Shown here: positions 11,925 through 19,462 of the stretch, piece by piece
Position numbering within the stretch: the stretch's first letter is position 1
Layout: each line of letters starts with the position of its first letter
DNA from: Chlorobium sp.
GTDB lineage: Bacteria > Bacteroidota > Chlorobiia > Chlorobiales > Chlorobiaceae
Reading direction: 5' to 3'
Assembly: GCA_005843825.1 (NCBI GenBank)
Contig: SZXX01000009.1
Span: forward strand, 1 to 47,587
Length of the DNA stretch: 47,587 bases
Notes under the pieces: generated by a model
Database searches by the model: none
What the model was told of the DNA's origin: nothing
The model's input: only the letters and a program-made list of their open reading frames with translations
Made by a program: the position numbers and the translations under genes

Positions 11925-12947
11925 ATGAGTAACCCGGATGTTGGTTGTCGAGTAGCGGTGTTTGGTGCAACTGGTCTTGTCGGACGCACAATGCTCAAGG
12001 TTCTCGAAGAGAGAAATTTTCCTGTAAGCGACATAGTTCCGCTTGCTTCCCCCCGAAGTGCCGGTCAGGTTGTTCGGTTCAAGGGGCGGGAGTTTACTGT
12101 TCAGGTGCCTTCCAAAGAGGCCTTTAAAGGTGTCGATATAGCTCTTTTTTCGGCAGGAGCAGCTGCCAGTAAGGAGTGGGCTGCAATTGCCGCAGCAGAA
12201 GGTGCTGTTGTCATCGACAACTCGTCTGCATTTCGAATGGATCCTGATGTTCCTCTTGTTGTGCCAGAGGTTAATCCTGAAGCTATTTTCAAGACGGACG
12301 GCACCCCTGAACATATTATTGCCAATCCCAACTGTTCAACCATTCAGATGGTTGTGGTTCTCAAGCCGCTTCACGAGCGTTTTGGCGTGAAGAGGGTGGT
12401 CGTGTCGACCTATCAGTCCGTTACAGGAAAAGGGAAGGTTGGACGCGATGCCCTTGAAAGCGAGCTTGCCGGTGAGAAGCAGGATGAATTTACCCATTTT
12501 CATCAGATAGCATTCAACGCCGTCCCGCAGATTGACGTTTTCACTGAGAACGGCTATACCAAGGAAGAGATGAAGATGGTGAATGAAACCCGGAAGATCA
12601 TGGGCGATAACTCCATGAGTATTTCTCCTACAACGGTACGCATTCCGGTCTATGGCGGGCACGGCGAGTCCCTCAATATAGAACTTGAGCGCGATTTTGA
12701 TATTGATGAAGTGCGTGAGCTTCTCCGTCAGTCACCGGGGATTATTATTCAGGATGATCCTTCGGCGCGCATCTACCCCATGCCATTGACCTCCTATGAA
12801 CGTGACGAGGTTTTTGCAGGAAGGATTCGACGTGATTACTGGCACCCGCAGACGTTGAACATGTGGATTGTTGCCGACAACCTGAGAAAAGGAGCGGCAA
12901 CCAATGCCGTTCAGATCGCCGAGGTTGTCAATGCTAAAAGGGTCTAG
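11925..12947 (+). CDS. asd: Aspartate-semialdehyde dehydrogenase
   Basis: Asd reduces aspartyl phosphate with NADPH, at the branch point to lysine, diaminopimelate, threonine and methionine. The N-terminal VAVFGATGLVGRTML binds NADP, the active-site cysteine lies in NPNCSTIQM, and the SYQSVTGKGKVG (here with TYQSVTG), RIPVYGGHGESLNIE and NAVQIAEVV blocks are as in the family. At 340 residues the length is normal. Its 3' end overlaps the convergent gene by 14 bases. Confidence 0.96.
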   Translation: MSNPDVGCRVAVFGATGLVGRTMLKVLEERNFPVSDIVPLASPRSAGQVVRFKGREFTVQVPSKEAFKGVDIALFSAGAAASKEWAAIAAAEGAVVIDNSSAFRMDPDVPLVVPEVNPEAIFKTDGTPEHIIANPNCSTIQMVVVLKPLHERFGVKRVVVSTYQSVTGKGKVGRDALESELAGEKQDEFTHFHQIAFNAVPQIDVFTENGYTKEEMKMVNETRKIMGDNSMSISPTTVRIPVYGGHGESLNIELERDFDIDEVRELLRQSPGIIIQDDPSARIYPMPLTSYERDEVFAGRIRRDYWHPQTLNMWIVADNLRKGAATNAVQIAEVVNAKRV

Positions 12948-13815
12948 TTTCCTTTTGTTCACTGAGAGCCATCAGTGCTGCACTGATGGCCTTTACTGCC
13001 GACGCTGACGAGACCGGAAAACGTTGCGGGTTGCTGATCGCTATGGATGGCGGGATAGTGAGCGGTTTCAGGGCAATTGATGTCTCCTTGCCGATCAGTC
13101 GGGTGATAATCCTGTCGGCCATTGTACCGGTAAGCTGCACGTAGGTTTCACGGCAGACCGGGTTCTCGACAAGTTCTTTTATGGTGAAGTACTCTCTCTC
13201 CTCTTTGTTTTTTACATGATGGAACGAAAATTTTTCAATCTGTCCATCTCTTGATATCGTCAGGAGTACATAGTTTTTTTCAAGTTCAAGGATGACCTGC
13301 GGCTCTCCGGCCAGTTTCGACAGGTGAAACAGAGGCAGTTGCGGCGAGCCATTGAACACTATCTGATGATAGCCTGCAAAGTGTTCTGAAACTCTTTTGC
13401 AGTGTTCGTCAGGATAGAAAAGCAGGAGGTGTTTCTTATGAGATCCGTTACTGACACTGTCGCTGTAACCGGTATGGTCGCACCTGTATTGCTCAGGTTG
13501 GACTAAAAAGTAACCCGCTTCAATTCTACAGTACTCTTTGCATTCATCCGGGCTTGCATCTACAGGAAAGTATGCCGGCATGTGCAGGTATGTTCCCGGT
13601 TCGACACAGAATGCAAGGTTTTCCTGCCCCCACTCTTTAAGGTGACGTTCAACTTTTTTCAGGATGCGCTTCCCTTTGCCCGCAGCAAGGTCGCCCAGGC
13701 CTAATGGAAGGGTTTTACATTCACTCAGGATATATCCATTGCTTCCAGAAGTTTTAAGGCGTACAACACTGCATTCTGTAGTGCTGATGGAGCATGCTAA
13801 CTGGCTTTTGCTCAT
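12934..13815 (-). CDS. Hypothetical protein, possibly PilM-like
   Basis: I do not recognise this 293-residue product with certainty. The N-terminal half alternates short strands in a way that recalls actin-like PilM/GspL proteins: an S-x-T-x-x-S/V-V-x-L start, an LPLG turn, LKEWGQENLAFCVEP, and a DECKEYCRIEAGYFLVQPEQY segment. This resemblance is weak. Its start codon overlaps the stop of the upstream ComEA-like gene (TAATG), so the two are translationally coupled; a shared role in a type IV pilus or DNA-uptake-like envelope process is only an inference. Its 3' end overlaps asd by 14 bases. Confidence 0.6.
   Translation of the reverse strand: MSKSQLACSISTTECSVVRLKTSGSNGYILSECKTLPLGLGDLAAGKGKRILKKVERHLKEWGQENLAFCVEPGTYLHMPAYFPVDASPDECKEYCRIEAGYFLVQPEQYRCDHTGYSDSVSNGSHKKHLLLFYPDEHCKRVSEHFAGYHQIVFNGSPQLPLFHLSKLAGEPQVILELEKNYVLLTISRDGQIEKFSFHHVKNKEEREYFTIKELVENPVCRETYVQLTGTMADRIITRLIGKETSIALKPLTIPPSIAISNPQRFPVSSASAVKAISAALMALSEQKETRPF
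12968..12990. repeat. Perfect 10-bp inverted repeat at the asd 3' end
   Basis: GCCATCAGTG (12968-12977) is repeated in inverse at 12981-12990 around a 3-base loop. It lies 20 bases past the asd stop, inside the last codons of the convergent gene. The T tract is poor (CTTTAC), so it is only a possible terminator for asd. Confidence 0.55.
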
Positions 13816-15705: not shown

Positions 15706-17079
15706 ATGTCGAACCACGATATATTCGGGCTTGCTGCATTTACACCGCTGGTTCTTGTCAAACAGATGGCCCGTCACATTCGGCCAAAGGTTATGGCCAA
15801 GCTTGAGTACCTGAACCCGGCTTGTTCGCACTATTATCGTGTAGCATCTGCTCTCATCACTGATGCTGAAGAGCGCAACCAGATTCATCCGGGAATGACG
15901 CTTGTTGACTGGACGTTCGGCAACAGCGGGATCGCCCTGGCCATGGCCGGAGTTCGACGGGGGTACAAGCTGCTTCTGGCGGCCCCTGATAAAATTTCAC
16001 GAGAGAAGCAGGAAGTGCTCAGGGCTCTCGGTGCTGAACTGGTTATTACTCCTTCAGATGCCCGGCCTGGAGAGGCGCGCAGCTGCATGAATGTAGCTGA
16101 AAGTTTAGTAAAAAGTATTTCGAACGCCTTTTTTACCGGCATGTATAACAATCCCGTCAGTATCAAGGTGCATAGTGAAGCTACCGGCAGCGAAATCTTT
16201 CGCCAGACTGATGGAAAGGTTACTCATGTTTTTGTATCGATGGTCTCTGGTGCGATGGCTTCCGGTCTTGGCCATTATTTGAAAGAGAAAAATCCGAAAA
16301 TCAGCATCATCGGCGTTGAATCACAGGGCTCTGTTTATGCAAACCTCTTGAGCGATGGAAAGCCGGGCAATCCGGTTTTTACTGAACTTGAGGAAATCGG
16401 TTCCATGCAGCAATCCTCGATCTGGGACCCATCGGTTATCGATGATGTTATACAGGTAAGCGACTATGACGCATTTAACTGCGGGCGTGAGCTTTTGCGG
16501 ACTGAAGCTGTTTTTGCCGGTGGCGCATCCGGCGCAGTCATGTCTGCAGCGCTTCAGGCAGGAGAGGAATATGGTGAGGACGATTGTGTTGTTGTGGTGA
16601 TGAATGATTTCGGCGGCTATTATCTGAGCAAGATGTACAATGATGATTGGATGCGGAAACGTGGCTTTTACCGCAAGGCGAAATCAGCTCTTGAACAGAT
16701 TACCGCAGAGGATATTCTGCAGTTGAAAGTCCGCAGGGATCTGATTTTCGCATATCCCGAAAATACCCTTGCAGAAGTCTTTGAAATGATGAAGCAGAAT
16801 GATGTTTCCCAGCTTCCTATTGTTTCATACAACGCACCGATCGGCAGTATCAGTGAGAACAAAATTCTCTCTATTCTTATAGAAAACGATGAAGCGATGA
16901 ACTCCAAAGTTGTCGGTTTCATGGAACAGCCTTTTTCAGTGTGCAAACCGGAGGCAACGATTTCCGAATTATCCGACAAGCTGCAGCAAAGTGCATCCGG
17001 AGTATTGATCAGTATGTCGGATGGTAAGCTTCAACTGCTTACTAAATCAGATCTTATTGATGCGTTAACCCATAAGTAA
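15706..17079 (+). CDS. Cystathionine beta-synthase-like protein lacking the PLP lysine, with CBS domain pair
   Basis: The first 330 residues align along their length with cystathionine beta-synthase/cysteine synthase, including VLRALGAELVITPSDAR, IIGVESQGS and YLSKMYNDDWM. The cofactor sites are nevertheless changed. The family's SVKDR is SHYYR at 41-45, putting Tyr43 where the PLP Schiff-base lysine should be. The glycine-rich phosphate loop GTGGT is SGAMA at 181-185. The Ser that contacts the pyridine nitrogen is Phe302 (NDFGGYY). TSGNTG is TFGNSG. Residues from about 335 to 457 form two CBS modules that normally bind adenosine nucleotides. The fold is retained and the frame intact, so it is probably a conserved non-PLP sensor or scaffold, not a pseudogene. 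It is unlikely to make cystathionine. Confidence 0.88.
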   Translation: MSNHDIFGLAAFTPLVLVKQMARHIRPKVMAKLEYLNPACSHYYRVASALITDAEERNQIHPGMTLVDWTFGNSGIALAMAGVRRGYKLLLAAPDKISREKQEVLRALGAELVITPSDARPGEARSCMNVAESLVKSISNAFFTGMYNNPVSIKVHSEATGSEIFRQTDGKVTHVFVSMVSGAMASGLGHYLKEKNPKISIIGVESQGSVYANLLSDGKPGNPVFTELEEIGSMQQSSIWDPSVIDDVIQVSDYDAFNCGRELLRTEAVFAGGASGAVMSAALQAGEEYGEDDCVVVVMNDFGGYYLSKMYNDDWMRKRGFYRKAKSALEQITAEDILQLKVRRDLIFAYPENTLAEVFEMMKQNDVSQLPIVSYNAPIGSISENKILSILIENDEAMNSKVVGFMEQPFSVCKPEATISELSDKLQQSASGVLISMSDGKLQLLTKSDLIDALTHK

Positions 17080-17262
17080 GTACCCTCAAATTATCTGGTT
17101 GCTTTTTAGGGGAGATTTACGTAATTAATGGCCTCTGAACATTCCGCTTTTTTTTAATGTGCGATACACTATATTGCGCAGTGAAGCTGGAATAAATGTC
17201 AGGTATGGTACACCCCGGCCCATACAATCAATGGATGAGAACAGAATAGATCCCGACGATTG

Positions 17263-17853
17263 ATGAGCGGGTTAACAACCAGCAAGTATTATATGAAGGT
17301 AGAGTCCAGAAAAAGGCAGTTCATTTTAGAGGGTAAGATCAAGGCTTGCTTCTGTGAAGGATGCGGTCAGGTTACCGACAAGACGTTTGTTGGCGAATGG
17401 ATTCCGAGTGATAAGCCGAAGGACGACGATTTTCTGACGGTAGTTCCTGTCAAGAAGCATAAAGACGCGAAGAATGGTGCTGGCGATGTGCCGCCTCCTG
17501 CTGAAAACCAGTACTGGATTCGCTGTTCAGAGTGCAATCAGGTATTTCTGCTTAGGGAATGGCAGATACAGATTGACAGGGAAGTCAGCCCCGAAGAGTT
17601 GAAGGCCGAAGATTGTCAGATATACTCACCTCATGGTATTTACGCCAAAGGTGACGCGCTTTTTCATAAGGCGCTTGGCGAAGTTGGAGTTATCAGGGAG
17701 AAGCAGGCCACAGGCAGTGGAGCTTTCGTGATTATTGTCGAATTTGCAAAAAGCGGCAGAAAGCAGCTTCTTGAAAATGTGCAGCTGGTTTCTTCAAAAG
17801 AAAAAAATTCAGAGAGCATTACTGATATTATTAAACTAAAACTTAAACGTTGA
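17263..17853 (+). CDS. Hypothetical zinc-ribbon protein upstream of rpsU
   Basis: I do not recognise a named family. About 196 residues. Two Cys pairs, CFCEGCGQ near 29-36 and CSECNQ near 90, suggest a zinc ribbon. The C-terminal third (GDALFHKALGEVGVIREKQ ... FVIIVEFAKSGRKQLLENV) has the small beta-barrel pattern 'position-GxGxV-x-IxVxFxxxGxKxL' seen in many short transcription- or nucleic-acid-associated proteins. The ATG at 17263 is taken; ATG at 17293 (MKVESRKRQF) is an alternative. It is 24 bases upstream of rpsU on the same strand, so a link to translation is possible. Confidence 0.7.
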   Translation: MSGLTTSKYYMKVESRKRQFILEGKIKACFCEGCGQVTDKTFVGEWIPSDKPKDDDFLTVVPVKKHKDAKNGAGDVPPPAENQYWIRCSECNQVFLLREWQIQIDREVSPEELKAEDCQIYSPHGIYAKGDALFHKALGEVGVIREKQATGSGAFVIIVEFAKSGRKQLLENVQLVSSKEKNSESITDIIKLKLKR

Positions 17854-18157: not shown

Positions 18158-19462
18158 ATGAGAGTGTTCAAAGGTGAAGTCACAGCATTGCCGCCAGACA
18201 AGTCGATCTCCCACCGTGCGGCACTTATAGCTGCCTTGTCAGAAGGGACAACGGAGATCACCAACTTTTCCGGAGGATTTGATAATCAGTCAACCCTCAG
18301 CGTGTTGAAGGATGCAGGTATTTCCGTCAGGCAGTTTGAGGAGGAGGGTGCGTACGGCCGTCGTATTCGCAAAGTGGTCATAGAATCAAAAGGATTGTGG
18401 AGTTTTCAGCCTCCCTCTGCTCCGCTGATGTGCAACAATTCAGGCAGTACCATGCGGATGTTTTCCGGTATTCTCGCAGCACAGCCCTTTGCAAGTGAGC
18501 TGATAGGCGATAGTTCGCTGATGAAGCGTCCAATGAAAAGGGTTGCTGACCCGTTGAGGCTTATGGGCGCGGATATTGAGCTTTCAGCATCAGGCACTGC
18601 ACCGGTCAGGATAAAAGGGACAAAAGAGCTTAAGCCGATTGAATACCGCCTTCCTGTGCCCTCAGCTCAGGTGAAGTCGCTTGTAGCTTTTGCAGCTCTT
18701 CATGCCGACGGTGAAACAAGGATTATCGAAACAGTGCGTTCGCGCGACCATACCGAAGTGATGCTCGGTCTGCAGACGCTGGTGAATGAGAACGAACGGG
18801 TTATTGTGGTGCCTGGCAGAAAACGTATAGCAGCAAAACCCTTCTTTATTCCTGCCGACCCTTCTGCCGCATGTTTTATTGTTGCGCTCGGGTTGCTTGC
18901 CTGCGGTTCAGAAATCATCATCAGGGATGTCTGCCTCAATCCTACCAGGGCTGCATACCTTGATATACTTTTGGAAGCCGGTGCCGGTATTTCAATTGAA
19001 AACGAGCGAGTGATCGGTGGTGAATCCATTGGCGACATTCTAGTTCGCAACAACCGGGATCTTTCGCCTCTCGTGATCAGTGATCCGCAGCTGGTTGCCT
19101 TTATCATTGATGAAATTCCCATGCTTGCCGTGCTTTCAGTCTTTGCAACCGGCCGGTTTGAACTCCATAACGCCGCCGAACTGAGAACCAAAGAGAGCGA
19201 CCGGATCGATGCTCTTGTCGTTAATCTCGAGCGTCTTGGTTTCGATTGCGAGCAGTACCCTGACGGCTTTATTGTAAAAGGGCGCACTGCAACACCTTCA
19301 GGATCGATTGTTATTGACAGCTTTGATGATCACCGGATTGCCATGAGCTTTGCCATTGCAGCCAAGGCTACAGGTACTGATCTTGACATTACAGATATCA
19401 ATGTGGTGGGAGTTTCGTTTCCGAATTTCTTTGAAATGATTGACGGCTTGGAAGTCCGATAG
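18158..19462 (+). CDS. aroA: 3-phosphoshikimate 1-carboxyvinyltransferase (EPSP synthase)
   Basis: AroA joins PEP and shikimate 3-phosphate in the shikimate pathway. The N-terminal [20 protein letters not shown] block with the Lys-Ser pair, [17 protein letters not shown], the PSAQVKSL segment, [18 protein letters not shown], the LRTKESDRI motif and [14 protein letters not shown] are all present. At 434 residues it is full length. It follows the rpsU terminator and ends 15 bases before the convergent hydrolase gene. Confidence 0.96.

Follow-up and report, generated by a model that had tools for sequence, protein, structure and literature searches.

What does a protein do that has the complete architecture of a cystathionine beta-synthase (CBS) but lacks the residues that hold the pyridoxal phosphate (PLP) cofactor of that enzyme? 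The question is raised by a gene in a 47,587-nucleotide stretch of Chlorobium sp. DNA (contig SZXX01000009.1; the whole stretch is referred to as the window), in which an uninterrupted open reading frame transcribed rightwards (15706–17079, + strand) encodes a 457-residue protein. Its overall similarity is such that the gene would be named cystathionine beta-synthase throughout this phototrophic family, leading pathway models to assign a reverse transsulfuration step that the residues fail to support. An earlier sequence-only reading proposed that the product is a retained pseudoenzyme and not a sulfur enzyme, and this prediction is strongly supported by the altered site being fixed across the family under purifying selection, by intact orthologues at the same chromosomal place in sister families, and by the absence of a companion gamma-lyase-like gene.

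Domain architecture and predicted structure

The reading frame is open throughout and encodes a full-length protein in which a PALP domain precedes two CBS domains, the domain order of cystathionine beta-synthases; the assignment draws on Pfam, phmmer and the orthologues described below. The former catalytic (PALP) domain spans residues 11–323 (15736–16674, +), with a PF00291 match at residues 11–299 (E 2.9e-57), and the CBS-domain (Bateman) pair spans approximately residues 333–457 (16702–17076, +), with two CBS-domain stretches recognized by Pfam (the better at 342–392), such that both CBS modules remain, as had been proposed. Unbroken similarity to CBS had also been noted, over about 330 residues; it is unbroken and in fact runs to about 450, with residues 8–453 aligning by phmmer with the Mycobacterium tuberculosis enzyme, the closest solved relative (E 8.6e-76). 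The NCBIfam CBS model TIGR01137 matches the protein end to end with a score of 339.6 bits, below its equivalog cut-off of 510.25 bits. An AlphaFold2 model has a mean pLDDT of 87.6 (mostly >85 in the PALP domain), keeps the CBS fold and is best matched in the PDB by full-length CBS enzymes; the PALP half alone is within ~2 Å rmsd of related enzymes. No known RNA or riboswitch was found 5′ of the gene, and promoter and terminator scans at the locus gave matches not above chance expectation.

The cofactor site

In human CBS, Lys119 forms the Schiff base with PLP, the GTGGT loop (Gly256–Thr260) binds its phosphate, Ser349 faces the pyridine nitrogen and Asn149 is a further contact (PMC7277093). 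Alignment places Tyr43 (codon 15832–15834, +) at the position of Lys119 and Phe302 (codon 16609–16611, +) at that of Ser349, both as predicted by eye in the sequence-only reading. The phosphate loop is altered as that reading had claimed, although its register was one residue off: GTGGT aligns with V180-S181-G182-A183-M184 (VSGAM, residues 180–184; 16243–16257, +) and not with SGAMA at 181–185. The Asp of the KDR motif is replaced by Tyr44, human Gln222 by Met146 and human Gly305 by Glu230, and the asparagine/substrate loop reads DWTFGNSG (residues 68–75; 15907–15930, +) as against E-x-T-[SA]-GNTG. The lysine is present in 51 of 51 intact relatives, which mostly have Ser, Thr, His or Val at the position of Phe302.

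Such replacements are over-represented in the pocket. In the Chlorobiaceae, 22 of 93 strongly conserved PALP columns are replaced, and pocket columns are enriched among them (8/13 versus 14/80; Fisher p = 0.002). In total, the side chains at PLP-contacting positions are larger by ~212 Å3 (calculated from sequence, without coordinates), and the cavity is therefore probably filled by the larger side chains of Tyr43, Phe/Tyr71, Met184 and Phe302. A protein of this kind is predicted not to bind PLP. Non-covalent PLP binding with a persisting weak lyase activity could draw on Asn73, which corresponds to the O3′-contacting human Asn149 and is kept in Chlorobium, and on the retained T70 and G72; it is nonetheless very improbable with the lysine, the glycines and threonines of the phosphate loop and the pyridine-facing residue gone, and with Asn73 itself being Thr or Ser in Chlorobaculum.

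Distribution within the Chlorobiaceae

A search of 98 genomes of the class, with the sequences read back, reveals orthologues throughout both Chlorobiaceae genera, Chlorobium and Chlorobaculum, with 66–96% identity; carriers include Chlorobium ferrooxidans DSM 13031 and Chlorobium sp. N1. Among 67 distinct full-length Chlorobiaceae orthologues position 43 is Tyr in 66, Asp in one and Lys in none, position 302 is Phe in all 67, and the changes at Tyr43, the phosphate loop and Phe302 recur together across the set. Because the altered residues are common to 67 distinct orthologues, chance and sequencing error are excluded, and a recently decayed allele, which would have undone the pseudoenzyme proposal, is rejected on the same grounds; intact homologues do exist, but only in other families. 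Seven Chlorobiaceae genomes have no match to the gene, and none of these has the adjacent gene either; since the neighbor is equally missing, the region is taken to be unassembled there and gene loss is rejected. The gene is thus present in every Chlorobiaceae genome in which the region is assembled.

No intact CBS paralogue that could take over catalysis is present in the same genome, which has only two CysK-like genes. One Chlorobium metagenome-assembled genome (locus L132; G042:C44:51516–54016) contains both the pseudoenzyme and an intact distant CBS (30% identity, SIKDR) with a gamma-lyase-like gene directly 3′ of it; the pair is either a transsulfuration operon that was acquired or a contaminant in the assembly.

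Origin and gene neighborhood

Ten genomes from two other families of the order encode a protein 44–46% identical to that of Chlorobium in which SIKDR or SVKDR, GNTG and GTGGT are all intact. In most of the ten the gene adjoins the same neighbor as in the window, and in several aroA (18158–19462, + in the window) is next, so that these are positional orthologues of the Chlorobiaceae gene. The shared downstream neighbor (17260–17853, +; start codon uncertain) encodes 197 residues, which include CxxC motifs and have no match in Pfam, and is the sole neighbor conserved across the order, being adjacent to the altered gene in the Chlorobiaceae and to the intact gene in most relatives that have one. 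It is retained in the order's remaining family (G086 and G087), where matches to CBS are only of CysK strength and the CBS gene has been lost. With CBS intact, altered or missing according to family, an active enzyme, a pseudoenzyme and a loss are therefore all found within one order.

The sampled Chlorobiaceae sequences are recovered as a single clade with support 100; the stem leading to it measures 1.02 changes per site, and the branches inside it are much shorter. Elsewhere in the window, a leftwards-transcribed gene (12934–13815, −) encodes a 293-residue protein with no Pfam match and is next to a gene for a helix-hairpin-helix protein; both are fast-evolving in the Chlorobiaceae. In one sister-family genome, haem-copper oxidase-like open reading frames are seen by eye near the intact CBS (L133:13775–16486), which hints at an aerobic way of life and, with it, a possible reason for the retention of transsulfuration there.

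The companion gamma-lyase-like gene

In one sister-family genome (G096) a gamma-lyase-like gene lies ~600 bases 3′ of the intact CBS gene. An orthologue of it (at least 74%) is present in all ten genomes with an intact CBS and missing from each of 86 Chlorobiaceae genomes (E 1e-135), and in the family that has lost CBS there is only a 55% relative, in G087. The sampled Chlorobiaceae members of PF01053 group apart from the gamma-lyase-like gene in a small tree. More distant PF01053 paralogues, to which an NCBIfam scan gave no definite function, remain in the Chlorobiaceae, and the loss of reverse transsulfuration from this family is therefore no more than likely.

Selection and shift of constraint

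The altered gene is under purifying selection, with a median dN/dS of 0.075 in Chlorobium and 0.111 in Chlorobaculum. The CBS pair is held more tightly than the PALP domain in both genera (0.036 versus 0.090 in Chlorobium and 0.062 versus 0.125 in Chlorobaculum), and evolves more slowly in 256 of 261 Chlorobium and 89 of 90 Chlorobaculum pairwise comparisons, the pairs being mutually non-independent. The PALP/CBS ratio of dN is 2.40 and 2.08 in the two genera and is reversed in relatives with an intact site, being 0.66 in the nearest families (only three pairs) and 0.57 among more distant relatives (49 pairs). Identities follow the same pattern: between the two Chlorobiaceae genera the PALP domains are 63% identical and the CBS pairs 82%, whereas within the intact sister families the values are 77% and 65%.

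With essential catalytic residues gone and purifying selection maintained, the gene has the properties of a pseudoenzyme. That it is instead a disappearing remnant, surviving by chance or because its deletion would disturb the neighbors, would fit with the remaining family having lost CBS and kept the adjacent gene, and is already contradicted by dN/dS values far below 1 in each genus, frames that are open throughout, and presence in every genome covering the region; 45 residues newly fixed in the Chlorobiaceae and rare among intact relatives also argue against it, and we consider it extremely unlikely.

Seventeen of these 45 residues are in the CBS pair, the most constrained part of the protein, which is conserved to its last C-terminal residue (LTHK). 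Several others lie within the former pocket or close to it (Tyr43, Asp68, Ser74, Ser181, Phe302 and Tyr305), as might be seen if the PALP pocket had been remodeled to catalyze another reaction, one that needs no PLP and is under the control of the CBS pair. However, most of the residues introduced at the PLP contacts are bulky or hydrophobic, filling the cavity rather than arming it, and the PALP domain is the faster-evolving half, making such a new enzyme improbable.

CBS-domain pairs commonly bind adenosyl ligands, and the T-x-x-D sequence of such pairs is a ribose-binding motif with a role in ligand binding. This Bateman motif is retained, with T446 in 61 of 67 orthologues (Asn in the other six) and D449 in all 67. 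Sensing of adenosine nucleotides or scaffolding of a partner, both of which had been suggested in the sequence-only reading, may be the role of the protein, and would fit the shift of constraint as well as the retained motif.

A proposed regulatory role

We consider it probable that a single event on the Chlorobiaceae stem gave rise to a pseudoenzyme shared by the whole family, and that this protein now works by way of its CBS-domain module. The ancestral CBS of the order would have lost its PLP site once in this lineage, from which the gamma-lyase-like gene is also absent, and the protein would have been retained as its cavity was filled with bulkier side chains. With the PLP site replaced and the sensor half now the most conserved, the old enzyme therefore seems to have been turned into a regulator, likely a non-catalytic regulatory subunit. 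The small ligand bound by the CBS pair would probably be an adenosyl compound, for example AdoMet or an adenine nucleotide. Because no catalysis is left, the signal would have to be handed on to a partner, presumably relayed through the PALP scaffold. Cysteine synthase CysK is a reasonable candidate for this partner since related proteins regulate by binding, as mentioned in PMC6522883. The stronger proposal of a stand-alone metabolite sensor, in which the CBS pair has become the working core and the inactive PALP half a hub controlling sulfur assimilation in green sulfur bacteria, is put forward tentatively.

Association with CysK could also take the form of mixed dimers, in which the protein is a structural or inhibitory subunit of the active CysK paralogues and the CBS pair is only a protein interface. 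The two CysK-like paralogues of the same genome (38% identity) have an intact SVKDR, conservation of the CBS pair up to the terminal LTHK would suit an interface, and a precedent for protein binding by CysK is provided by the Bacillus subtilis CysK-CymR complex, which controls cysteine metabolism (Tanous 2008, as cited in PMC6522883). However, a genetic link to cysK is not seen, and we view mixed dimers as unlikely. Under the favored reading, a pseudoenzyme acting through its Bateman module, the locus offers a clear natural case of a regulatory module outliving a catalytic site, with active enzyme, pseudoenzyme and loss represented at one locus in one order.

Comparison with known systems

A search of the open-access literature on this protein, on CBS in green sulfur bacteria and on PLP-enzyme pseudoenzymes revealed no published description of it. 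The closest known system is the bacterial CBS with a CBS-domain pair (TIGR01137; M. tuberculosis Rv1077, PDB 7xnz), which has the same architecture and length, aligns over ~450 residues and has the same fold as the Chlorobium model; sister-family CBS genes occupy the same chromosomal place. The Chlorobium protein differs in having neither the Schiff-base lysine nor the pyridine-facing serine, in its altered phosphate loop, in scoring 339.6 bits against the 510.25-bit cut-off, and in the absence of the gamma-lyase-like gene.

Arabidopsis PDX1.2 partners an active paralogue, whereas no active CBS is left in the Chlorobium genome, and the two folds are unrelated. The likeness lies in the retention of a homologue without catalytic activity, as predicted for the Chlorobium protein, with PDX1.2 described as a pseudoenzyme boosting vitamin B6 biosynthesis in a title cited in PMC6522883. 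The CysK-CymR complex of B. subtilis, again as cited there (PMC6522883), resembles the proposed system in the use of a fold-type II sulfur enzyme for protein binding; CysK, however, keeps its PLP site and activity, whereas the Chlorobium protein has lost its PLP site and has a CBS-domain pair.
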